From a virus, in the IMG/VR virus record IMGVR_UViG_3300023179_004565, positions 1 through 28,663 of that record: DNA of 28,663 bases. The stretch is one strand, 5' to 3'. Shown one piece after another: positions 467 to 10,224 of the stretch. The position numbers and the translations under genes are program-made. The notes beneath the pieces are model-generated. The model ran no database searches. It saw only the letters and a program-made list of their open reading frames with translations, and was not told the origin of the DNA. Position 1 is the first letter of the stretch. The number at the start of each line of letters is the position of its first letter.

Positions 467-593
467 AGCGGTATCCTGCGTCGCGGAAAGTCACCTTTTT
501 GTAGCGTACTTCATGGACACAGGTGATGCACGTCCCGATCTCCCGCTCGGCGCCCCGCAAAACCGCCTCACAGGACCGGCAATGGGTTCTCAC
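411..593 (-). CDS. Small zinc-knuckle protein between TerL and portal
   Basis: This is a 60-residue frame. The GTG start overlaps the TGA of the terminase gene (GTGA), suggesting translational coupling, and the 3' end overlaps the portal start by 56 nt. Cysteine pairs CRSC (residues 5-8) and CITC (22-25) could bind one zinc ion as a short ribbon. The C-terminal half is basic and hydrophilic. I do not recognise a family. The coupled start and paired CxxC motifs make it more than a chance frame, but the long overlap with the portal gene lowers confidence. Small zinc-ribbon proteins are common in phage packaging regions; any function here is unknown. Confidence 0.5.
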   Translation of the reverse strand: MRTHCRSCEAVLRGAEREIGTCITCVHEVRYKKVTFRDAGYRYGEKRTNSDGPNGKTGGR

Positions 594-2926
594 CGCTGCG
601 CGCCCTTGAACGAATAGCTGCCATCCCGGATGGACGTCTTGCCGAACTTCCGCCCGCTCGAGAACTGCGTCACCGGTGCCTCGTAGGCCAGCCAATACGA
701 CCAAGCGTCGGAGCTGTGGGTGCGTTTGAAGTAGGGATCTGACCGATTTGCGACCTTGCGCAGCCCGCCGCGCTTGTCGAGCTGGACTTGCTCCAAATCG
801 AGTATCAATTCCTCACATTTCGGGTCGATTTCGACGTTCACCTCGCCGTATTCGTCCTTCAACTGGCGGTTCACAGCGTTGATCCGGTCGCGCACCATGG
901 GGTTCTGGTGGGGCAATTTGAGCCGAATTCCGACCCCTTTCGAGCGCATATGGTTGATGATCAGCGTGTAATTGGTCTCAGCGGTCTGCGCAGAGCGGTG
1001 CTGGCCGGTCTGGTCGCCATACACCCACCACTCGCCACGGTGCGAGCCGTAGGTGTCGTATACGTAGTCGCACATCTCGGCCAAATCGGAGTTTTCGGTC
1101 ACAAACTCGTCGAAAACACGGAAAACGTTGCCGTCGCGCTGCCCAATGAGGGTGATCAACGGGTCGATGTTGAAGTCCCAGCACCAGACCAAGGGCCGCC
1201 GAGGGTTCCAGAAGCTGGCTTGGTCGTGGACGTGCAAACTGCGCTCGAAGCTCGTGAACGCTCGCGCGCCGCCCGTGCCCGGTAGGAGTTCGCCATCCAG
1301 GCGAATACGACGCTGAAGACTTCCAGGAGGATAAATGCTTTCAAGGAACCGTACCTCGTCCGGCCCGATGAAGGGATTGTCATAGATACCGGCGGTGATG
1401 AGCAGCACGTCCTTCAACTTTCCCGCCTGCCACGGGCGCACGATGTCGTCGTAGGTCCACGTCACGCCGCCCGGTACGCCTTCCGGCGGCAACAGCGTGC
1501 AGGTCACGATGACGGAGAGCGTCCGACCGGCCTCTACGCGGATGGTCGCTTCCTCGTACACGTCCTTATCATGCTCTTCGTCGAACCAGATGAGGTCTTT
1601 GCCGGTGCCCTGGTACTTCTCGCGCCCGGAGTCGTTACTTTTGAATCCTAAAATACTTCCATTTTTCAACTTCAAAATCTGCTGACTAGGCACCCATTGT
1701 TGGATTTCCCGTTGCGGAATGAACGGCTCATTTCCTCGGCCTTTTACGCCATAACCGTTATCGAATAGCTTCGGTTGCACGATGTCACGGCTTGACGGCC
1801 AGTCGAGTGAAGAAGCCCATACGGACACTGAGCGATCAGTAATCGTCATATCAGGCGAATAATGCACGGTCTCAGAATCGGGCCAACCGAAGCGCAGCGC
1901 CTGGGCAACAATACTCGCCCCCACTTGCGATTTGCCGCTGTTGTGGTGCAACGCCCCCGCAGCGTAATAACAGTGCGTTTCTTCTACCTCGAAATCCACA
2001 ATCGGCTGCAAACCGAGTTCCTGGTATGCTATAATTCGCCTATCACCAAACAGAGAAACCGCGCATGGCTGCAAATAATCGGAGGGGCATGAAGCCGTTC
2101 GATCTCGAAGCTCGAGGTATCGTTCCTCTACTGGAGCAAGGGCTGACTCGTCGTGCAATCGCAGAAGCGTTGGGGGTAGACAAAACGACGGTTGACCGTT
2201 GGTGCCAGAAACGGGGGCTTTCCACAGGCCGAACAGGGCCTCTAGCAGGCCAGGGTCATCCAGACTGGCTTGGGGGAAGGACGCTAGACAAGCATGGATA
2301 CATTCTGGTGTGGGCCCCGATGCACCCATTTTGCCGAGCTTCTGGAAAACTTGCTGAGCATCGGCTTTTGGCTGAAGCGCTTCTATTTCGGCATCTAACG
2401 CCAGAAGAAGTTGTCGACCACGTCGATGACTGTCCGTACCACAACTGGCCAGATAATCTTCGCCTATTTCCTTGCAACGCCGATCATCTAGGCTGGACCA
2501 CAGGTCACCGAGCGAAGCCCACCCAGAGGTGGTCAATACCCGGTGCCTACAAGTCGCCTCAAAAACTTCCCCGTTGTCCAGATGAAAGCGAAACGCTGGC
2601 TCAATGCTCTTCAGAAATAAAGCAGAGGCTCGCTTGGTACATCGACTGCTACCGTCCCAGGATCGAACATAGAAACCTTTCTCGCCGAGAACTTCGCGAA
2701 GTGGGCGCGTGGCGGAACCCATTTCCACGTTTGTCCAAGGCGTAAGGCATCTATTACCGCCGAGGAAAAAGCCGCGCTTGTACTTGCGCGACATGATCTC
2801 GTCGATGAACTTCTGCTGCTTCTTGTGCGGCTTGAAGCTCAGCAGCGGATCATCCGCCCGCCGCCGTGCCAGCTCTTCCCGAAGTGCGAGCGCCTGCTCG
2901 AGCAGCGCCCGCTGGTTGTCGCTCAC
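590..2926 (-). CDS. Terminase large subunit precursor, interrupted by an intein in Walker A
   Basis: TerL is the ATPase-nuclease motor that cuts phage DNA and pumps it through the portal. The precursor is 778 residues. Removing the 270-residue intein (residues 60-329) leaves a 508-residue protein, a normal TerL length. The spliced Walker A would read GGNR-SGKSQVG. Walker B is LIWFDEEH and the coupling motif is near VIVTCTLLPPEG. The RNase-H-fold nuclease shows acidic positions at WCWDFNIDP, VYGDQTG and SSDAWSYW. The GTG start overlaps the TGA of the upstream membrane-protein gene (GTGA). Without splicing the P-loop is broken, so packaging should depend on intein excision. The extein has no frameshift. 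Confidence 0.93.
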   Translation of the reverse strand: MSDNQRALLEQALALREELARRRADDPLLSFKPHKKQQKFIDEIMSRKYKRGFFLGGNRCLTPWTNVEMGSATRPLREVLGEKGFYVRSWDGSSRCTKRASALFLKSIEPAFRFHLDNGEVFEATCRHRVLTTSGWASLGDLWSSLDDRRCKEIGEDYLASCGTDSHRRGRQLLLALDAEIEALQPKADAQQVFQKLGKMGASGPTPECIHACLASFPQASLDDPGLLEALFGLWKAPVSGTNGQPSFCLPPTLLRLHDESALAPVEERYLELRDRTASCPSDYLQPCAVSLFGDRRIIAYQELGLQPIVDFEVEETHCYYAAGALHHNSGKSQVGASIVAQALRFGWPDSETVHYSPDMTITDRSVSVWASSLDWPSSRDIVQPKLFDNGYGVKGRGNEPFIPQREIQQWVPSQQILKLKNGSILGFKSNDSGREKYQGTGKDLIWFDEEHDKDVYEEATIRVEAGRTLSVIVTCTLLPPEGVPGGVTWTYDDIVRPWQAGKLKDVLLITAGIYDNPFIGPDEVRFLESIYPPGSLQRRIRLDGELLPGTGGARAFTSFERSLHVHDQASFWNPRRPLVWCWDFNIDPLITLIGQRDGNVFRVFDEFVTENSDLAEMCDYVYDTYGSHRGEWWVYGDQTGQHRSAQTAETNYTLIINHMRSKGVGIRLKLPHQNPMVRDRINAVNRQLKDEYGEVNVEIDPKCEELILDLEQVQLDKRGGLRKVANRSDPYFKRTHSSDAWSYWLAYEAPVTQFSSGRKFGKTSIRDGSYSFKGAQR
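2027..2035 (+). promoter_or_regulatory. Extended -10 promoter for the antisense HNH gene
   Basis: TGCTATAAT is a perfect extended -10 element (TGnTATAAT). No good -35 is seen at 17 bp (TGCAAA, 3 of 6), but extended -10 promoters tolerate that. Transcription would begin near 2042 and leave a leader of about 45 nt before ATG 2089. The element lies within intein DNA that encodes the C-terminal splicing region on the other strand. It would let the endonuclease be made independently of the late terL operon. Confidence 0.65.
2081..2085 (+). promoter_or_regulatory. Shine-Dalgarno site deciding the HNH start
   Basis: GGAGG, continuing GGC, directly precedes ATG 2089. The earlier in-frame ATG at 2065 has only a weak purine stretch upstream. 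The site favours 2089 as the start and leaves the helix-turn-helix intact. Confidence 0.6.
2089..2745 (+). CDS. HTH-HNH homing endonuclease encoded antisense inside the intein
   Basis: The gene encodes 218 residues from ATG 2089, chosen because GGAGGGG lies directly upstream; an in-frame ATG at 2065 would give 226. Numbered from 2065, a helix-turn-helix is at 29-51 (RRAIAEALGVDKTTVDRWC) and an HNH domain at about 97-145. The HNH contains AEHRLLAEALL, then VVDHVDDCPYHNWPDNLRLF, then NADHLGW, the usual EHRL, H-x-D and N-x-x-x-N-L layout of phage HNH endonucleases. The roughly 80-residue tail is basic and aromatic. The frame lies wholly within the intein DNA on the opposite strand, and its TAA ends 4 bp inside the intein border. 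By analogy with known homing enzymes it probably cuts intein-free terL. Conservation of HNH residues argues against a shadow frame. Confidence 0.88.
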   Translation: MKPFDLEARGIVPLLEQGLTRRAIAEALGVDKTTVDRWCQKRGLSTGRTGPLAGQGHPDWLGGRTLDKHGYILVWAPMHPFCRASGKLAEHRLLAEALLFRHLTPEEVVDHVDDCPYHNWPDNLRLFPCNADHLGWTTGHRAKPTQRWSIPGAYKSPQKLPRCPDESETLAQCSSEIKQRLAWYIDCYRPRIEHRNLSRRELREVGAWRNPFPRLSKA

Positions 2927-3165
2927 ACAACAACCCCGAGCAGACCACCGCCGAAGATGAACGCGAGGTCCATGTAGCTCCCTGGCCCCATCTCATCGGG
3001 CGTCCAGTCGTGCTGCCACAGCTCGCGCAGGTAGCCGATGGCCGTCACGATGACCAGCGCGACGATGGCAGGCATGATGAGATGCAGGAGCGCACCCACC
3101 GCGAACCCCGCGGCGGCGTGCGCAACCTGATCTACGAGTTCCTTGTGGTCGTCGTAGAAACTCAT
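2923..3165 (-). CDS. Small two-helix membrane protein upstream of TerL
   Basis: The protein is 80 residues. Two to three hydrophobic segments are visible: about 14-43 (HAAAGFAVGALLHLIMPAIV and on) and the C-terminal LAFIFGGGLLGVVV. Between them is a charged, aromatic loop (LRELWQHDWTPDEMG). The ATG overlaps the stop of the NeuA-like gene (ATGA), and its TGA overlaps the GTG of terL, so it is translationally tied to both. Size and topology would suit a holin or another inner-membrane phage protein. However, a separate lysis cassette lies at 23.3-24.9 kb, so I call it only a membrane protein of unknown role. It could also serve the sugar cassette. Confidence 0.75.
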   Translation of the reverse strand: MSFYDDHKELVDQVAHAAAGFAVGALLHLIMPAIVALVIVTAIGYLRELWQHDWTPDEMGPGSYMDLAFIFGGGLLGVVV

Positions 3166-3914
3166 GTCAGCAGCCCGGCTTCGGGCGCGGCTTCGACTTC
3201 TTCTTTGCCATGCTTCTTCTCCTTCAGGTTGAGCCTTCTTTCAGCTTCGGCCATGTCCGCCTCGTCGTCAATGTTGACGAGCGGCGGGGTTTTGACGGGG
3301 TAGGTCGACAGCGGGGAATACACCGCCGACCGCACCGACATCATCCACACCCGCGATAGCGCGTAGACCGCGCCATTGCGGATAAATCGCTCCGGGATAT
3401 CCTGGCGGCGCAGCGCCGTGTCGGCACCCTCCACCGTGGCCAGCACGCCCTTGGAAATGGCGAACTGCTTCATGTTCGCGTAGCGCACCGGCACCTCTTC
3501 CACGGTCCAGGCAGCACTGTACGCCTTCATCGCGGAGATCGCCGACACGGCATGCTCCGCCATCCACACTTCGCGCAGCGGGCTCGTGGGCTCGAGGTAG
3601 ATGCTGGTCGCGAAGAAGTGCCCTGCCTGCTTCTCCGCTTCCAGCCACGCATGCTTCCATACGTCCACCGCGCGGGACTCGTCGCCGTGGTAGGTGGGTG
3701 GCAGGCAGAAGTCGATCATCGCGCGGCTCCCCACGTGCTGGACAACCTCCTGCGATTCTGTGCTGACGATCACGTGCGGCGAGACGGACTCTGCGAAGTC
3801 GATGGCGCGGTCCAGTAAAGTCCGCCCCGCCACCAGGCGCATGTTCTTGCGCGCGACGCCCTTCGAGCCCATTCGGCAGGGGATGACGCACAGCGTGGTG
3901 GGCAGGATGGTCAT
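3162..3914 (-). CDS. neuA-like: CMP-N-acylneuraminate cytidylyltransferase-like protein (NeuA family)
   Basis: This 250-residue protein has the N-terminal nucleotide-binding signature IPCRMGSKGVARKN (residues 11-24), close to the IPARxGSKxxxxKN motif of NeuA/KdsB enzymes. Further family-like stretches are DRAIDFAES, VSTES, YLEPTSPLR and NGAVYALSR. Members activate nonulosonic acids by joining them to CMP from CTP. The start ATG overlaps the TGA of the methyltransferase gene (ATGA). NeuB- and NeuC-like genes in the same operon make a CMP-sialic-acid-type product the natural inference. The exact sugar (Neu, Leg, Pse or other) cannot be read from sequence. The C-terminal tail (LKEKKHGKEEVEAAPEAG) is charged and unlike the core. 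Confidence 0.85.
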   Translation of the reverse strand: MTILPTTLCVIPCRMGSKGVARKNMRLVAGRTLLDRAIDFAESVSPHVIVSTESQEVVQHVGSRAMIDFCLPPTYHGDESRAVDVWKHAWLEAEKQAGHFFATSIYLEPTSPLREVWMAEHAVSAISAMKAYSAAWTVEEVPVRYANMKQFAISKGVLATVEGADTALRRQDIPERFIRNGAVYALSRVWMMSVRSAVYSPLSTYPVKTPPLVNIDDEADMAEAERRLNLKEKKHGKEEVEAAPEAGLLT

Positions 3915-4714
3915 AGCTTTTGGGCGGCTAGGTACTGGTACATCCAACCGTCCGGCCGGGTCCAGTATTCCGGGTCGCCGTGGACCGCGTAGCCGCACTT
4001 GTTCAGCATCCGGCCCAGCGACTCGAAAGTGAAATACCAGCGGTGCTGCGCGCAGAACCACATGTTCCGATAGGCGGCCTCCGACCACGCGCGGTCGAGG
4101 TCGAGGCACGGCACGACGATCTTCAACGTCGCGCCCGGCGCCATGAGCGTTGCGACGTCGCGCAGAACCGCCCAAGGGTCGCTGACGTGCTCGAGCACCA
4201 GCAGGAGCAGCACCTCGTTCGCCGTCGCGCCAAAACGCTCGTAGGCGTCCTGTACGGTGGCGAAGGCGTGGTGCCGGCGCTGCTCGGTGATGAAGCCGCG
4301 GAACTTCTCGTTCGGCTCGACGGCGATTGTGCCGAGCGATCCGTCCATCTGCAGCAGATGATCGAGCACCAGCCCGCCGCCCGCGCCGATGTCGGCCACG
4401 TTACTGCCACGCGGCACGCGCAGCCCTTCGGCCATCATCTGCGCGTAGGCGCTCTGTACCTTCACGTACTTCGCGTAGTCGTCGTCCCGTGCGACCGACT
4501 CGTGGTATTCCTCGGTCTCGTATGCCTCGTCCGGCAGGCACTGCTGCTCATCCAGCCGCAGCAACTTGCACTCCCAGCACTGGTAGAAGTCGCCGAGCAC
4601 AGGCGGTTTGCCGACGTGCGCGCGCATCGGCAGCGCGAACATGAAATCGAACGGCTTGTCGCAGGTAGCGCAAGTGGCGCTTCGCGCCCCATCTTGCTTC
4701 GCAATAATGGTCAC
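3911..4714 (-). CDS. SAM-dependent methyltransferase with N-terminal zinc site
   Basis: The protein is 267 residues from a GTG that overlaps the TGA of the HD-domain gene (GTGA). Two CxxC pairs, CATC (15-18) and CWEC (46-49), form a likely zinc site. A class I methyltransferase fold follows, with motif I VADIGAGGG (about 106-114) and an acidic motif II near TIAVEPNEKF. A post-motif-III segment reads LVLEHVSDPWAVL. This zinc plus Methyltransf_23-like layout is typical of sugar C- or O-methyltransferases in surface-polysaccharide clusters. Lying between NeuC- and NeuA-like genes, it most likely methylates the sugar or a precursor, but no substrate is shown directly. Confidence 0.8.
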   Translation of the reverse strand: MTIIAKQDGARSATCATCDKPFDFMFALPMRAHVGKPPVLGDFYQCWECKLLRLDEQQCLPDEAYETEEYHESVARDDDYAKYVKVQSAYAQMMAEGLRVPRGSNVADIGAGGGLVLDHLLQMDGSLGTIAVEPNEKFRGFITEQRRHHAFATVQDAYERFGATANEVLLLLVLEHVSDPWAVLRDVATLMAPGATLKIVVPCLDLDRAWSEAAYRNMWFCAQHRWYFTFESLGRMLNKCGYAVHGDPEYWTRPDGWMYQYLAAQKL

Positions 4715-5142
4715 CGTATGACCCTCTGAATGATGGGCTGGAAGGCGTTCAGCGATAGGCGGATGTACGCCGGGTCGAAGCTCGGATGGTCGTACTTCTG
4801 CGCAAAGAACATCGCGTCGTTGGCCGGCACGTGCCAGTCGTCGCCGGCCGAGAGCAGTTCCTGCATGGCCAGGGGGTGCTCGTAGCAGGCGATGAGCGCA
4901 CGGGCTGAAATGAACGGCCGCAGCACCACACCGGCCATGTTGCCGTGCTGCAGCGCCTCGAAGCCGCCGAAGACATCGTGGAACAGGCACATCACCACAT
5001 AGTCGTCCGGCTCCTTGGCGTAGAGCGCGCGCGTTGCGCACTGGAGTGAGTGCTCGTACTTGTCGATACGCTTGTCGAACGCCGCGTACTCACCACGACG
5101 CGTCTCGAGCAGCGCGAGCAGGCGCTCAGCTATCTTGTGCAA
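4711..5142 (-). CDS. HD-domain protein (PhnZ/MIOX-like metal hydrolase or oxygenase)
   Basis: This 143-residue protein has the ordered metal ligands of an HD domain: H31 in YEHSLQ, H55-D56 in CLFHDVF, H66 in LQHGNMAG and H89 in ACYEH. A single compact HD domain with the extra histidines resembles the mixed-valence di-iron oxygenases (PhnZ, MIOX) and related HD phosphohydrolases; I cannot decide between these. It overlaps NeuC by 17 nt and the methyltransferase by 4 nt. I infer a step on the sugar or its phosphate, for example removal of a phosphate in place of a dedicated NulO-9-phosphatase. The link to the pathway is by position only. Confidence 0.7.
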   Translation of the reverse strand: MHKIAERLLALLETRRGEYAAFDKRIDKYEHSLQCATRALYAKEPDDYVVMCLFHDVFGGFEALQHGNMAGVVLRPFISARALIACYEHPLAMQELLSAGDDWHVPANDAMFFAQKYDHPSFDPAYIRLSLNAFQPIIQRVIR

Positions 5143-6217
5143 GCAGCACCTCCGCGATGGCCTGGCCGGCGTTGCCGCGGCCGTAGGTGTGATCGGGCGG
5201 GTAGCGCCCCGTTGAGATCTGCTGGGCGATGGCCTGGGATAGGTTCTCGAACGCCGGCTGCAGCACGTTGACCGTCGTCAGTCGCCCTCGCTGGCGTTCA
5301 CCCACGTCCACCACCGGCGTACCGAGAATGCCTGCTTCCCGCACACCGACGCTGCTATTCCCCACGAGGCACGCGGCGTTCCGTAGCAGCCCCAAGAACT
5401 GCTCGGCCGGCAGGTGGCGGTAGAAGCGCACCGGGGCGTTGTGCTCATGCTCGAGGCGCAGTTCCTTCTCGATGCCCTCCGCGCCGGGGTCGATGTTCGG
5501 CCAGAACCACAGCACCTGCAGGTTGCCGGCGCTGCGGCACACCGCGTCGAACAACTCTCGCGGCGTGAACTCGTCATCCAGGCACGGATGGTAGAGCGCG
5601 ACGACGTAGGGCGACGCCGGGTCGAACTCAGGACCAATGCCCGTCGCGTTCAGAACCGGGGCCGGCGGCATCTTCGCCCTGAGCGCCAGGTCGACGCTCG
5701 GGCAGCCGGTCAGGTGCACGTTCCTGTGCCCGGCCTGGTAGAGCGTCCGGTAAGCGTCGCCTGTCGGCACGCAATGGACGTCGGCCAGGGCGGTGTTGGC
5801 GAAACGCACCTTGTCGTCGATGTTGCCACTGCGCTCACCGCCCAGGATATGCGTCAGCGGGATCTGGTTGTAGCTCGCCGCGATGCTCACTGCCAGGGTC
5901 TCGTAGCGGTCGGCCACCACGACCACGCGGTCGGGTTCCAGGAAGTCGAACACCGTTGTCAGCTCGGCGATGAGTTGGCCGGTGTAAGCCGCGGCGCCGT
6001 TCAGCCCATGCGGCTCGATGCCGGCGCAGCGGTAAATGGGCACGAACTCCGCGAAGGTGGCGATGTCGTGCTCGACGTTGCCGAAGCGGGTCAAGGCCGC
6101 GGAGCCCGCCAGCACGATGCTGAGGTGCGCGTTCCGCGCTTCCAACTCTTCGATGACCGTTTGCACTCGAGCGAGCGACGCCCGGGCGGTGATGACGATG
6201 ACAATGTGGTTGGTCAT
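5126..6217 (-). CDS. neuC-like: UDP-N-acetylglucosamine 2-epimerase-like protein (NeuC family)
   Basis: The protein is 363 residues, near the usual 370-390 of hydrolysing UDP-GlcNAc 2-epimerases. ATG 6217 starts directly at the Rossmann strand (HIVIVITARAS). Family landmarks are VVVVADRYETLAV (D103, E106), HILGGERSGNIDDKVRF (about 123-139), LTGCPSVD, VALYHPC, and the C-terminal nucleotide-binding part LVGNSSVGVREAGILGTPVV. The enzyme class converts UDP-GlcNAc to ManNAc and UDP, or acts on a related UDP-sugar. The usual RH in the GE..GxiDe..RH block is RF here, a departure worth checking. It lies 16 nt downstream of NeuB and overlaps the HD gene by 17 nt. Confidence 0.87.
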   Translation of the reverse strand: MTNHIVIVITARASLARVQTVIEELEARNAHLSIVLAGSAALTRFGNVEHDIATFAEFVPIYRCAGIEPHGLNGAAAYTGQLIAELTTVFDFLEPDRVVVVADRYETLAVSIAASYNQIPLTHILGGERSGNIDDKVRFANTALADVHCVPTGDAYRTLYQAGHRNVHLTGCPSVDLALRAKMPPAPVLNATGIGPEFDPASPYVVALYHPCLDDEFTPRELFDAVCRSAGNLQVLWFWPNIDPGAEGIEKELRLEHEHNAPVRFYRHLPAEQFLGLLRNAACLVGNSSVGVREAGILGTPVVDVGERQRGRLTTVNVLQPAFENLSQAIAQQISTGRYPPDHTYGRGNAGQAIAEVLLAQDS

Positions 6218-6233
6218 TGCGGCGCTTATAGCC

Positions 6234-6974
6234 CTACGGGTTCTTGCGGAACAGGCTGATTTTCTCCATCTCCGCGTCGAAGCACTCCTTCCTGCCACGG
6301 AGAATGCGCTCGCGCTGGTGAGCGAAGTCGCAGATCTCCTTCAACTGGTGGGCTTCGTGACTGCACGCCTGGTCGGGCCCGGGCAGTGCTTTCGAGAGGG
6401 TGAAGTGCACCTCGATGACCTCAGCGCCGAGCGTCATCGCCGCAATGGGTGCTGCCACGGTTCCGGTGTGATCGCTATAGCCCACACCGGTGTTCAGGTA
6501 GGACTGGTGCCACTCCTGGATGACGCCGAGCCGCGTCAAGGTCAGCGGCGTCGGATAGACGCTCGTGCACTGGAGCAGCGTCACCCGTGGTGCATCGGCC
6601 AGTGCCGCTCGAGCATGGATGACTTGCGGCGGCGTGCAGGCTCCAGTGGAGCAGATGACCGGCTTGCCCTTCGCCGCGACGTGCGCCAGGAAGTCGAGGT
6701 CGGTTACTTCGGCGCTGCCTATCTTGTGCACCCTCACCAAGGGGTCAATCTCGTCGGTGCCCTGCATGTCGTACGCCGTGCAGAGAAAGTCGAGATGCGC
6801 CTGTTCGGCATGCGCGTAGAGCGCAGACATTTGCTCGAGCGTAATCCGCCGCCGGTGCTGGAACTTCACCGCATCCACGCCGCACTCCGCGGCCACGTCG
6901 ATCATCCTCTTCGCAATTTCCACTGAGTTCTGAAAGTTGTTGCAGCACTCCGCAATCACATACACGTCAGCCAC
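6234..6974 (-). CDS. neuB-like: N-acetylneuraminate synthase-like protein (NeuB family), without SAF domain
   Basis: The protein is 246 residues from a GTG at 6974 that overlaps the end of the RHH gene by 8 nt. NeuB condenses phosphoenolpyruvate with ManNAc or a related sugar. TIM-barrel landmarks are clear: VIAECCNN, GVDAVKFQ, VHKIGSAE (83-90), VICSTGA, LLQCTSVYPTP, GYSDHT (165-170) and EVHFTLSKALPGPD. Known NeuB proteins are about 335-350 residues and end in an antifreeze-like SAF domain that helps form the active site across the dimer. Here the frame stops at SLFRKNP, where the SAF linker would begin, and the loop after KFQ is also shorter. The GxNH motif is altered (NNF). It may be a compact synthase or one with altered specificity. 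Confidence 0.85.
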   Translation of the reverse strand: MADVYVIAECCNNFQNSVEIAKRMIDVAAECGVDAVKFQHRRRITLEQMSALYAHAEQAHLDFLCTAYDMQGTDEIDPLVRVHKIGSAEVTDLDFLAHVAAKGKPVICSTGACTPPQVIHARAALADAPRVTLLQCTSVYPTPLTLTRLGVIQEWHQSYLNTGVGYSDHTGTVAAPIAAMTLGAEVIEVHFTLSKALPGPDQACSHEAHQLKEICDFAHQRERILRGRKECFDAEMEKISLFRKNP

Positions 6975-7110
6975 GGGTTTCCTCCAGGCGCTTCGCCAGC
7001 TCGGTCCGAATCCACGCACTCAGCGTCAAGCCGGCGCGCCTCGCGGCTGCAGCCCACTCACGCTTTTCCTCCGTGGGAATGCGTAACTTGATGATCTCGT
7101 CGTTTCTCAT
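6967..7110 (-). CDS. Ribbon-helix-helix regulator heading the sugar-packaging operon
   Basis: This 47-residue protein starts MRNDEIIKLRIPTEEKREW and continues AAARRAGLTLSAWIRTELAKRLEE. A short basic beta strand (IIKLRIP) followed by two helices with the G-L-T-L-S-xW-I turn is the Arc/CopG ribbon-helix-helix pattern. Such proteins bind DNA as dimers through the strands. It is the first gene after a strong promoter at 7119-7147, and an operator-like palindrome overlaps that promoter, so autoregulation is likely. The 3' end overlaps the NeuB-like start by 8 nt. Confidence 0.8.
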   Translation of the reverse strand: MRNDEIIKLRIPTEEKREWAAAARRAGLTLSAWIRTELAKRLEETRG

Positions 7111-7118
7111 GTTGCCAC

Positions 7119-7132
7119 ATTGTAGGCACAAC
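7119..7132. promoter_or_regulatory. Operator-like half-palindrome overlapping the -10
   Basis: ATTGTAGGCACAAC is a near copy of the perfect inverted repeat at 7232-7245 (12 of 14 identical). It covers the -10 hexamer of the operon promoter, so a bound repressor would block RNA polymerase. Confidence 0.6.
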
Positions 7133-7147
7133 TCCTGCGGCTTTCAA
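7119..7147 (-). promoter_or_regulatory. Sigma70-type promoter for the RHH-neu-terL-portal operon
   Basis: On the minus strand, TTGAAA (plus 7142-7147) is followed by a 17-bp spacer and TACAAT (plus 7119-7124), 5 of 6 matches at each hexamer. Transcription should begin near 7112, only a couple of bases before ATG 7110, so the regulator mRNA would be leaderless or nearly so. No other promoter of this quality is seen before the portal. Confidence 0.72.
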
Positions 7148-7231
7148 CTCTGTGCCGGAAAGTACGAACTCGGTCGGATTTCAGGCGGAGTTCGAGTTGG
7201 GGGATTTCAACCGATTGGGGAATGTGTACAC

Positions 7232-7245
7232 GTTGTGGGCACAAC
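7232..7245. promoter_or_regulatory. Operator-like perfect inverted repeat
   Basis: GTTGTGGGCACAAC has perfect 6-bp arms around GG. It lies 113 bp upstream of the promoter-proximal copy, close to a whole number of helical turns, which would allow looping. A minus-strand TTGAAA also sits nearby, as at the first site (10 versus 9 bp from the repeat). Confidence 0.55.
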
Positions 7246-7633
7246 TTGTAGGAATTTTCAAATTGCTTGAAGTGCTACTACGTCAACGTACCCGTGTCGG
7301 CGCAGCCCCACCGCCAGGGGTCGCCGCGTCGCGCTCCAAGCTCCGCGGCGCCTGGCACCTACCCAATCGGGTGTATCTCAGCGCACTAGAACGGTTGTTC
7401 TTCGCATAACGGGTGTTATGTCAAATCGAGGAGCGCACAGGGTGAAGGGTGAAGCATGCCGGCGAACGGCGCGTCGCTCTGCGGCTCCATGCGCGTAGCG
7501 CCGAGCCGGAAGCGCGGAAGGATTCGACCTACTAGCTTTGAGCTGTGACCACAGAGCGCAGGGTGATGAGCGCCGAGCACTGTGGCTTGGCTGTGACCAC
7601 GGGGTCAGAGCACAGAGCGCTACCTGGACGCGC

Positions 7634-8077
7634 TCAGCCCATCAGGTCATCAATCGAAGGTTCGCGGAACTCCGCATCGACGGTGACCGCCGAACGCTTG
7701 CGGCCATCCACCAGCGTGTCCAGCTTGCCGTCTATCGCTTCGAGCCGTTGCAGTAGCTCGCTGTCGCTCAGTTTGCCGATACTGGCGAATGGATGCGTTA
7801 GCGACGCGCCATCCTCCGGGCGTTCGCTGTAACCGGCGAGCCTTGCCATGGTCGCGACCATCGCTGCCCATCTGTCCGGATTCTTTGCGGCGTAGGCCTT
7901 GATGTCATCAACCGTCTGTGCCCCTAGCATCGCCCGGATTAGCTCTGGCCTGAATGCCGCTCTGTCGAGGCTCTGTATCTGCAGGAGCAGCGCTCTGCCC
8001 TCCGCTGACCTTTCGACTGCGGCGACCATGCTGCCGCACTGCTCTGGATACGATCCACTGTCGGATAAGTTCGGCAT
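7634..8077 (-). CDS. Helical phage protein, possible C-terminal part of the small terminase
   Basis: The protein is 147 residues from ATG 8077; the frame is open to 8158. It is mostly helical. A region reads NPDRWAAMVATMARLAGYSER, followed by KLSDSELLQRLEAIDGKLDTL and an acidic C-terminus FREPSIDDLMG. These features recall small terminase and related phage DNA-binding proteins, whose C-terminal helices oligomerise or bind TerL; this is a weak resemblance. The first 170 nt overlap the HTH gene in another frame. No strong Shine-Dalgarno is seen at 8077. It may be a separate coupled gene, or the second half of one protein joined by a frameshift. Confidence 0.6.
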   Translation of the reverse strand: MPNLSDSGSYPEQCGSMVAAVERSAEGRALLLQIQSLDRAAFRPELIRAMLGAQTVDDIKAYAAKNPDRWAAMVATMARLAGYSERPEDGASLTHPFASIGKLSDSELLQRLEAIDGKLDTLVDGRKRSAVTVDAEFREPSIDDLMG

Positions 8078-8231
8078 CGGTGGCGTATTCACCGCCAGGG
8101 AGTCGGCATGCGGGGAATCCGTCTTCGCTGATCCAGCGTCGCAGTGTCCAGTATCCACAGCCTATGTGCTCCGCGATTGGGGCTAAGCCGACAAGTAGCT
8201 TGCCAGTGCCCTTGATGTGTCGTCCCGCCAT
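7908..8231 (-). CDS. HTH DNA-binding protein (Nu1/excisionase-like), small terminase candidate
   Basis: This 107-residue protein has an N-terminal winged-helix-like HTH: LAPIAEHIGCGYWTLRRWIS (about 16-35), then GFPACRLPGGEYATDAELIRQWI. The pattern of an HTH, a G-F-P turn, a glycine wing and a final W-containing helix is shared by lambda Nu1-type small terminases and excisionases. The last 45 residues are low-complexity and basic, as if out of the natural frame. The helical protein in the +1 frame (7634-8077) would continue the fold better. It starts 86 bp from the 18-bp palindrome at 8317-8334 and diverges from the small-gene operon, so it could instead be a repressor. Confidence 0.62.
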   Translation of the reverse strand: MAGRHIKGTGKLLVGLAPIAEHIGCGYWTLRRWISEDGFPACRLPGGEYATDAELIRQWIVSRAVRQHGRRSRKVSGGQSAAPADTEPRQSGIQARANPGDARGTDG

Positions 8232-8293
8232 GCCCCGAGCCTAGGCCGCATCGCCCCGGAATATCAAGTCCCCTCGATATGAAAAACGGATCT

Positions 8294-8309
8294 ATGCGAT
8301 TTTTCGCAT
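8294..8309. repeat. Inverted repeat in the divergent promoter region
   Basis: ATGCGATTTTTCGCAT has perfect 6-bp arms with a 4-nt T loop, 8 bp from the 18-bp palindrome. It may be a second operator or a small hairpin. Confidence 0.4.
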
Positions 8310-8316
8310 CGGCCTT

Positions 8317-8334
8317 GCATTGTGGCCACAATGC
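8317..8334. promoter_or_regulatory. 18-bp perfect palindrome, third operator-like site
   Basis: GCATTGTGGCCACAATGC is a perfect palindrome between divergent genes at 8231 and 8383. Its core TTGTG-GC-CACAA matches the sites at 7120 and 7233 (TTGTR-GG-CACAA). It sits between a TTGCAT and a CATACT on the plus strand (16-bp spacing), a weak promoter candidate for the rightward genes. Confidence 0.6.
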
Positions 8335-8382
8335 GTCATACTGATACACACAGACCGACAACAACGAACGAGGCACCGAGAC

Positions 8383-8481
8383 ATGAACTACGAAACATTC
8401 AACGAATACGGGTTGATTGCTTTCACGCTGATTGCTATCGGCGGAATGGTAGCGGCTTGGTGCCTGATAGCCGGAATCTGA
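8383..8481 (+). CDS. 32-residue single-helix membrane peptide
   Basis: The peptide is MNYETFNEYG followed by one hydrophobic helix, LIAFTLIAIGGMVAAWCLIAGI, that runs to the C-terminus. It is the first gene of the rightward small-gene operon, just after the palindromic operator, and uses the repeated ACAACGAACGAGG leader. Such peptides are often early phage membrane effectors, but no family is recognised. Confidence 0.6.
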   Translation: MNYETFNEYGLIAFTLIAIGGMVAAWCLIAGI

Positions 8482-8494
8482 CAGCCGATTAGCC

Positions 8495-8520
8495 TAAGCC
8501 GCCCCACGCTGGGCGGCTTA
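8495..8520 (+). terminator. Strong hairpin after the membrane peptide gene
   Basis: TAAGCCGCCC (8495-8504) and GGGCGGCTTA (8511-8520) form a perfect 10-bp stem with a 6-nt loop. No U-tract follows, so it may be a partial attenuator or an mRNA-end stabiliser rather than a full terminator. Confidence 0.5.
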
Positions 8521-8553
8521 CACGAATCGACCGACAACAACGAGGATCTGAAC

Positions 8554-8790
8554 ATGCGAACAATCTGCACCACATGCAACGGCGAAGGCTCCATTTTCCA
8601 CGATGACGGCCCGCAAACTAACTGCCACGACTGCGAAGGTTTTGGCGAGTACGAAGTGACCGACGACGTTATCGCCAAAGCGCTGGCGCACCTTGACGCT
8701 TTGCGCGAAGCGGGAGCTCATCCGGATGACGAAGCGGAAGCGCACGGTGCCTTGTGCGATCTCGTCGCCGCCATGGATGCCGACAAGTGA
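8554..8790 (+). CDS. Small DnaJ-type zinc-knuckle protein (copy 1)
   Basis: This 78-residue protein begins MRTICTTCNGEGSIFHDD and has a second cysteine pair in CHDCEGFGE. The two CxxCxGxG-type repeats are the zinc-binding elements of the DnaJ cysteine-rich domain, here standing alone. The rest is an acidic helical tail (AKALAHLDALREAGAHPDDE). It is a clear paralogue of the gene at 10228, which has the same knuckle order and spacing. Small proteins of this kind are common in phage early regions, often without known function. GAGG lies 9 nt before the ATG. Confidence 0.75.
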   Translation: MRTICTTCNGEGSIFHDDGPQTNCHDCEGFGEYEVTDDVIAKALAHLDALREAGAHPDDEAEAHGALCDLVAAMDADK

Positions 8791-8894
8791 CCACCATCAC
8801 CCTACTAGCCATCAGCGGCCACCTATACGCACTAGAGCGCATCGGCGACCGCACCATTCTCACACTGCTAACAACGAACGGGGATAGGACATGA
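8787..8894 (+). CDS. 35-residue peptide coupled to both neighbours
   Basis: The frame starts at GTG overlapping the TGA of the zinc-knuckle gene (GTGA) and ends in a TGA overlapping the next ATG (ATGA). The product is VTTITLLAISGHLYALERIG then DRTILTLLTTNGDRT. Exact coupling at both ends is the main support. The composition suggests a beta-rich or amphipathic peptide. No family is recognised; it may be only a translated bridge. Confidence 0.4.
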   Translation: MTTITLLAISGHLYALERIGDRTILTLLTTNGDRT

Positions 8895-9637
8895 CCGACA
8901 AAATCAAGGGCGCGGCCGTGCTGTACCATGGCCCCAGCATGATCGACGGCGAAGAAATCGTGCTCATAGCCACAAGCGCGAGCCGCAATGCTAAGACGGG
9001 CGCGATGATCCAGACTTGGATCCTGCGCGCCGACGTCGCCCCCAACATCGCCGCGCGTGATGGCCGCGACGCTTCCATCTGCGGGAATTGCCCGCTGCGC
9101 TATGACGCGGCCACCGGTCGCCGCGACTGCTACGTGCGGACGCAGGAAGCGCCATTGTCCGTCTACCGCGCCTTCCAGCGCGGTCGATACGTTCGCGCGG
9201 TCGACCACGCCAGCCGCGCGGATTTCGGCGACGGACAGATTGTCCGCATGGGTTCTTACGGTGACCCGGCCGCCGTGCCCGCGTACGTGTGGTCGCAACT
9301 CTTGTCGCGCTCCGCCGGCCGGACCGGCTACACGCACCAATGGTGGCACCGCGACCCGCTCGTGACCGCGAACGCTCGCGCGTTGCGCCCCTACGTCATG
9401 GCGTCATGCGACACGCCGCTCGAACACCAGGTCGCAACCGCCGACGGCTGGCGCACCTTTCGCACGCGCCGCCCGACGGACGTCGCCATGCCGCCGGAGC
9501 GCGTGTGTCCGGCCAGCGCGGAAGCGGGCGCGAAAACGACGTGCGCCGCCTGCCGCGCGTGCAGCGGCTCCGCCGGACGCGGGCACAGCTCAATCGTCAT
9601 CAACCTTCACGGTGCGGCTGCCCGCCGCGCCGCCTGA
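8891..9637 (+). CDS. Conserved phage protein of unknown function (DUF7227-like)
   Basis: The protein is 248 residues. The N-terminus has the pattern GPSMIDGEEIVLIATSAS, then KTGAMIQTWILRADVAP and SICGNCPLR with a later DCYV cysteine. This recalls a conserved protein found in many phages and proteobacterial genomes with no assigned biochemistry; the DUF number is from memory. A second cysteine group (VCPAS, CAACRACSG at about 218-233) resembles a zinc or Fe-S site. The ATG overlaps the previous TGA. The first half is the conserved domain; the last 20 residues are low complexity. Confidence 0.75.
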   Translation: MTDKIKGAAVLYHGPSMIDGEEIVLIATSASRNAKTGAMIQTWILRADVAPNIAARDGRDASICGNCPLRYDAATGRRDCYVRTQEAPLSVYRAFQRGRYVRAVDHASRADFGDGQIVRMGSYGDPAAVPAYVWSQLLSRSAGRTGYTHQWWHRDPLVTANARALRPYVMASCDTPLEHQVATADGWRTFRTRRPTDVAMPPERVCPASAEAGAKTTCAACRACSGSAGRGHSSIVINLHGAAARRAA

Positions 9638-9694: not shown

Positions 9695-9937
9695 ATGGAA
9701 ATTCTGAACGCTCACGATGCCGAACACTTCGCGACCCGGTGGCTGCTCGAATCCACGCCGGAACGCGCCGCGTGGCATATTCGCCACGCCGCCGACTCCG
9801 CTGACCGGTGCGCCGGACTAACCCCGCACCACAGCCCAACCATGCGCGCGGGATACGAAACCGCCGCGCGCGTCTTGCGGTCCTACCTTCCAGATGCCAA
9901 GCAGCTCGCGCGCAAGTACGCGCAAGGCAAACCATGA
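9695..9937 (+). CDS. Small helical phage protein of unknown function
   Basis: The protein is 80 residues from ATG 9695, with AGGA 8 nt upstream; an in-frame TTG at 9680 is an alternative. The sequence is mainly helical and basic (EHFATRWLLESTPERAAWHI, AARVLRSYLPDAKQLARKYA). The stop overlaps the next ATG (ATGA), so it is coupled to the HTH gene that follows. I do not recognise a family. Confidence 0.6.
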   Translation: MEILNAHDAEHFATRWLLESTPERAAWHIRHAADSADRCAGLTPHHSPTMRAGYETAARVLRSYLPDAKQLARKYAQGKP

Positions 9938-10224
9938 TCCGCCCCACCCCCTACGAACTCCGTGCCGCGCGCCTGGGCGCGCGATTGAGCCAAGCCGCGG
10001 CCGCTGCCCTACTCGGCGTCTCGCGCGTCTCCTGGTCGCGCTGGGAAAGCGAGACGAGCGGTTTTGCGATGTCGCCCGGACTGTGGATCGCGTTTAAGGC
10101 TGTGCTCGAGTCCGGTGAGGCCGCGCGCTGGGCGGCCACGCTGGCGAATCTCAAGAGCGCCGCTGCGCGCGCGCGCGCGCCCGTGAGCGCCTGGCGAATC
10201 GTTAAACCAACAATCGAGGACTGA
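9934..10224 (+). CDS. Cro/Xre-type helix-turn-helix protein
   Basis: This 96-residue protein has a clear HTH at about residues 12-35: ARLSQAAAAALLGVSRVSWS then RWESE, the S-Q-x-x-A-A-x-L-G-V-S-x-x-x-x-x-R-W-E pattern of Xre/Cro repressors. Later helices read WIAFKAVLESGEAARWAATL. The ATG overlaps the previous stop. It probably regulates a phage promoter, possibly those at 8.3 or 14.3 kb, but no target is shown directly. Confidence 0.75.
   Translation: MIRPTPYELRAARLGARLSQAAAAALLGVSRVSWSRWESETSGFAMSPGLWIAFKAVLESGEAARWAATLANLKSAAARARAPVSAWRIVKPTIED

Follow-up and report, generated by a model that had tools for sequence, protein, structure and literature searches.

The window analysed here, a viral record 28,663 bases long, carries a leftward operon in which sugar genes are joined to the terminase gene terL, and a divergent rightward operon of small genes. 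Three short palindromes lie at the promoter regions of these two units, which raises the question of whether a single regulator reads all three of them and, if so, which protein it would be. The features discussed below are collected in Table 1.

Table 1. Features of the window and their counterparts in the related phage L032
Feature	Coordinates	Strand	Sequence, evidence or remark	Counterpart in L032
Predicted operator site 1	7120..7131		TTGTAGGCACAA; over the -10 of P1	5841-5852, TTGTGGCCACAC
Predicted operator site 2	7233..7244		TTGTGGGCACAA; over the putative -10 of P2	5791-5802, TTGTGGCCACAA
Predicted operator site 3	8317..8334		perfect 18-bp palindrome GCATTGTGGCCACAATGC; core 8320-8331, TTGTGGCCACAA	core L032:4731-4742, TTGTGGCCACGA (window orientation)
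P1	7119..7147	-	-35 TTGAAA (7147-7142), N17, -10 TACAAT (7124-7119)	-35 TTGACA
P2 (putative)	7232..7261	-	-35 TTGAAA (7261-7256), N18, weak -10 CACAAC	-10 CACAAT
P3 (putative, weak)	8315..8342	+	TTGCAT-N16-CATACT; read by eye	block conserved
dif-like XerCD site	7399-7426		TCTTCGCATAA-CGGGTG-TTATGTCAAAT; XerC arm, 6-bp centre, XerD arm	
Predicted ribbon-helix-helix (RHH) protein, 47 aa	6967..7110	-	MRNDEIIKLRIPTEEK...; first gene of leftward operon	
NeuB	6234-6974	-	Pfam match	
NeuC-type epimerase	5126-6298	-	Pfam match	
Methyltransferase	3911-5041	-	Pfam match	
NeuA-type cytidylyltransferase	3162-4175	-	Pfam match	
TerL	590-2926	-	Pfam match and further family evidence	L032:10001-12574
Predicted winged HTH protein, 107 aa	7908..8231	-	family and fold matches	
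ORF up to 174 aa	7634..8158	-	overlaps the HTH frame	89% identical
Rightward small-gene operon	8383..9637	+	downstream of site 3	
32-aa ORF	8383-8481	+	rightward operon	
CxxC protein	8554-8790	+	rightward operon	
phrog_2554 protein	8891-9637	+	rightward operon	
XRE-type HTH protein	9934..10224	+	MIRPTPYELR...; alternative regulator	

Three palindromes of one kind lie in non-coding DNA

The leftward operon is ordered RHH, NeuB, NeuC-type epimerase, methyltransferase, NeuA-type cytidylyltransferase and TerL (590..6974 below the RHH gene). Positions 3162-6974 hold a nonulosonic (sialic) acid-like cassette, neuB-neuC-methyltransferase-neuA, placed between the RHH gene and terL in a single phage operon. 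We also observed an apparent intein in the window TerL (about residues 60-335, at the Walker A motif) and an intein-like sequence at a different location in the TerL of L032.

A scan of the whole window for TTGTR-N2-CACAA (TTGTRNNCACAA) identified perfect matches at 7120, 7233 and 8320 and no others, against a Markov expectation of 0.03-0.04 for TTGTRNNYACAA, and all three fell in non-coding DNA. These are exactly the positions at which the preliminary description of this DNA had placed three sites with common half-sites and a 2-bp centre. Its further observations were borne out as well: sites 1 and 2 are 113 bp apart, the third site is the core of an 18-bp perfect palindrome, and one site covers the -10 of the operon promoter, with site 1 overlapping 5 of the 6 bases of the P1 -10. 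Because the motif was defined post hoc from the sites themselves, and because 0.43 matches are expected by chance when one arm mismatch is allowed (p ~0.01 before any correction), we regard the count within the window as suggestive, not decisive. With two mismatches allowed, the motif was no commoner than chance (17 occurrences vs 23.6 expected).

Sites 1 and 2 were found within a 25-nt direct repeat of 80% identity (7109-7133 and 7222-7246). This repeat, together with the modest post hoc significance within the window, would suit a reading in which these two sites arose simply by promoter duplication and the palindrome of site 3 is a chance occurrence unrelated to them. The scan for terminators and RNA hairpins identified none, and this meaning of the palindromes was rejected. 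A recognition site of the phage's own N6/N4 methyltransferase was also rejected, as TGGCCA is broken in site 2. The literature search on the motif returned nothing relevant.

The sites are conserved in a related phage

The related phage L032 (IMGVR_UViG_3300025635_000104, 31.8 kb) was reached via TerL, and shares 75-93% identity with the window in aligned blocks (about 86% where aligned). We found all three sites at orthologous positions in L032, each departing from TTGTGGCCACAA at no more than one position. No other sequence in its 31.8 kb came as close, while 0.07 were expected and at most 1 was seen in 150 simulations. We therefore accepted the sites as real, and the concern raised earlier, that the motif might be no more frequent than chance across related phages, was answered in their favour by this genome.

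The pattern of change points in the same direction. Between the two phages, the core of site 2 is identical at 11 of 12 positions and its adjacent flanks at 6 of 20, while the figures for site 1 are 9/12 and 9/20; site 3 lies inside a conserved block and is therefore less informative on core-versus-flank conservation. The single change in site 2 (centre G to C in L032) produces a perfect palindrome, and 2 of the 3 core changes in site 1 raise its palindrome symmetry in L032. A motif that is kept while the neighbouring sequence drifts is the pattern of protein-binding sites. The duplication reading is thereby made highly improbable, as all three L032 sites converge on TTGTGGCCACAA at a count far above expectation, and the core of site 2 was kept where its flanks were lost. 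The spacing between sites 1 and 2 is 113 bp in the window and 50 bp in L032, and the difference of 63 bp, which is exactly 6 helical turns at 10.5 bp per turn, hints at looping or at binding on the same face; such a fit arises by luck about one time in four, and we gave it no weight.

The comparison covers two genomes, the window and L032, and a near-copy of the latter (L037) carries the same region. Searches of the viral contigs with TerL, the RHH protein, the 174-aa ORF and two conserved DNA blocks identified only L032 and L037 as relatives, with one further weak, partial TerL match (L033), and the genome_contigs, phage and plasmid collections contained no relative of this region. The exact 18-mer occurred in a single viral contig (L031), which is about chance level for a collection of that size; this contig was dropped, as the match lies just past an ORF end and signs of kinship were absent. 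Relatives of the phrog_2554 protein (L004-L030) were left out, being without such sites except for one TTGTATGTACAA in L014.

Two other elements in the region were nearly unchanged in L032. One is ATGCGA-TTTT-TCGCAT (8294-8309), a short palindrome immediately upstream of site 3 and within a 30-bp block that is almost unchanged. The other is a non-coding block around GCAGCCCCACCGCCAGGGGTCGCCGCG (7297-7330) with hairpin-forming potential.

Judged at the level of sequence, it is almost certain that one regulator binds the three palindromes and acts through them on both operons. The single regulator proposed in the preliminary description thus fits the three sites, the two promoter regions and the conservation in L032; its identity is a further step, which we infer together with binding and repression.

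The sites would repress two divergent operons jointly

P1 was the only 10-of-12 sigma-70-like promoter found in the region by the consensus scan. Translation of the RHH gene would begin 8 bp below the P1 -10 and 9 bp below site 1, and the message is therefore predicted to be near-leaderless. At site 2 we identified a second putative promoter with its own conserved -35, which is new relative to the preliminary description. P2 was missed by the consensus scan and hence stays putative; it is a weak promoter by consensus, as is P3. Both phages have the same 13 bases, TTTTCAAATTGCT, around the P2 -35, and P1 and P2 share a common build in both, TTGAMA-N10/11-TTGTG, with TTGAAA-N10-operator at P1, TTGAAA-N11-operator at P2 and the same spacings in L032. 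The site 3 palindrome occupies the -35 and spacer of the putative P3.

Repression is predicted because site 1 overlaps the P1 -10. In the mechanism we propose, a single phage-encoded repressor would bind all three palindromes. Its dimer or tetramer at sites 1 and 2 would occlude the -10 of the leftward P1 and P2, which would drive RHH-neuB-neuC-methyltransferase-neuA-terL, and at site 3 it would cover the -35 and spacer of P3, the presumed promoter of the rightward small-gene operon. The sugar-packaging and small-gene operons would then be repressed jointly, and the 47-aa RHH protein, as the repressor, would repress its own transcription and limit its own level. A loop between sites 1 and 2 may form. 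We lean, at somewhat better than even confidence, towards this arrangement of one autorepressing RHH repressor on three operators that coordinates two divergent units. It offers a testable control circuit for an uncultured tailed phage group, in which a candidate autorepressor would act through three operators on two divergent operons, and it would place the terminase under the same control as a set of sialic-acid-like sugar genes. As a principle this is nothing new, since small repressors of this sort are common in phages, and the circuit would be a fairly ordinary phage switch.

The RHH protein is the favoured regulator

The RHH gene is the first below P1 and P2, and site 1 overlaps the -10 of its own promoter. 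The family matches of its product were Arc-like, NikA-like or RelB-like; all of them were weak (E 1e-3 to 1e-5) and below curated cut-offs. The best Pfam match was NikA-like (E 6.7e-5), weak NCBIfam matches were to MobA, MbpA and TraJ, and the PDB match was AcrIF25 (E 3e-4). In a by-eye alignment on Arc, the predicted contact positions are I6/K8/R10 in the window and V/K/R in L032, so that K8 and R10 are conserved between two proteins of 51% overall identity. The usual target of an RHH repressor is a pair of half-sites spaced about 9-11 bp, or a set of tandem boxes. A lone 12-bp palindrome would be shortish for such a repressor, and this counts against our explanation. Provided that the sites are operators, we name the RHH protein as their probable binder with moderate confidence, and consider that role rather unlikely for another factor or a host factor.

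Small Arc/CopG-type phage and plasmid repressors repress themselves and coordinate divergent units. The locus resembles the Arc/Mnt- and CopG-type RHH autorepressors of phages and plasmids in its tiny putative RHH gene beside the promoter, its palindrome over the -10 and its several operators of one kind, and autoregulation is implied here. It differs in the weakness of the sequence matches of this RHH protein to those families, and in its operon, which consists of nonulosonate-type sugar genes and TerL, not of an antirepressor or rep gene; to our knowledge, no 12-bp TTGTG-N2-CACAA operator has been described for these repressors. The NikA-like best Pfam match and the MobA/MbpA/TraJ matches also recall RHH mobilization proteins. 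However, those matches all fall below the cut-offs and the sites here are on promoters, not at an oriT; family scans named no relaxase.

The XRE-type HTH protein, absent from the preliminary description, could instead own the sites as its operators and repress P1, P2 and, via site 3, its own operon. Short palindromes are a common target of XRE dimers. The protein is small, its recognition helix is identical in L032, it matches HTH_31/HTH_3 and repressor families, and its gene lies downstream of P3 on the same strand, fitting almost as well as the RHH gene. However, some 1.6 kb separates the gene from the nearest site, its start carries no site, and part of its family signal goes to Xer activation factors, which may be its real role near a dif-like site. 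We favour the RHH protein because of its gene position, and regard the XRE protein as an unlikely but serious candidate.

The winged HTH protein had been named beside the RHH protein as a possible regulator; the RHH part of that proposal is retained, and the HTH part is now very doubtful. Its gene adjoins site 3, it matches PHROG 66 'excisionase and transcriptional regulator' (E 1e-9), and its predicted fold (AlphaFold and Foldseek) is similar to the DNA-binding domains of RacA, BldC and MerR, all of which would suit an operator-binding protein. However, 5 of the 11 positions of its predicted recognition helix (27-37) differ from one phage to the other although the operators have been retained, which makes it the less likely binder, and its putative start is about 95 bp from site 3. 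The fold matches also include lambda gpNu1, a viral packaging-motor DNA-binding domain and the Xis of mycobacteriophage Pukovnik, and the place of the gene before TerL suits a small terminase. The likeness to gpNu1- and Xis-type winged HTH proteins is limited by a model of only moderate confidence (pLDDT 65) and a PDB search without a match below E 0.001. Its predicted fold and gene position point rather to the DNA-binding domain of a small terminase or of an Xis protein. In both phages, the HTH frame shares up to 250 bp with a well-conserved second frame, the 174-aa ORF (7634-8231). This ORF gave no convincing family match, and its fold prediction was too poor to use; it is possibly the rest of a small terminase, and the whole of 7634-8231 possibly a frameshifted or two-part small terminase.

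Phages borrow host regulators, and palindromes this short are common as bacterial operators, so a host transcription factor has general plausibility as the reader of the sites, with no particular factor indicated by any analysis. Against it, the spacing is unlike that of CRP (TGTGA-N6-TCACA) or Rex (TTGTG-N6-CACAA), and neither TTGTGGCCACAA nor TGTGGCCACA was found in the prokaryotic regulation literature searched. We rate this reading a shade more doubtful than the winged HTH protein.

A dif-like site lies in the same regulatory region

The part of the region likely to interest specialists most is a dif-like XerCD site, located in non-coding DNA between site 2 and the HTH genes. It matches CGCATAA-N6-TTATGTYAAAT with 0 of 18 mismatches, and no match with three or fewer mismatches was found in 40 simulated windows. 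Its XerD arm is identical to the arm given for Burkholderia mallei dif sites (PMC2731167). An exact copy of the 24-mer was found in an unrelated phage (L035) and a copy with one mismatch in L032, and a further record (L010) carries a two-mismatch site in a non-coding region beside packaging genes. In a BLAST search with the site, 28 of the 32 matches were Acinetobacter plasmid records, which we take to be pdif sites.

Tyrosine and serine recombinase (integrase) families were not found in the five records, all of which may be fragments. Filamentous phages and some tailless phages are known to target dif (PMC2731167, PMC11630473). The literature search found no description of dif use by tailed phages, which is not proof of its absence. 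A temperate tailed phage that lacks an integrase might use the host dif for integration or resolution, with the RHH or XRE protein and the three operators as a switch between packaging and early operons, and we offer this as a speculation that is itself rather improbable. Against the VC1465 family of Xer recombination activation factors, the XRE protein scores only weakly (20 bits, cut-off 70), but the match deserves attention given the nearby dif-like site.
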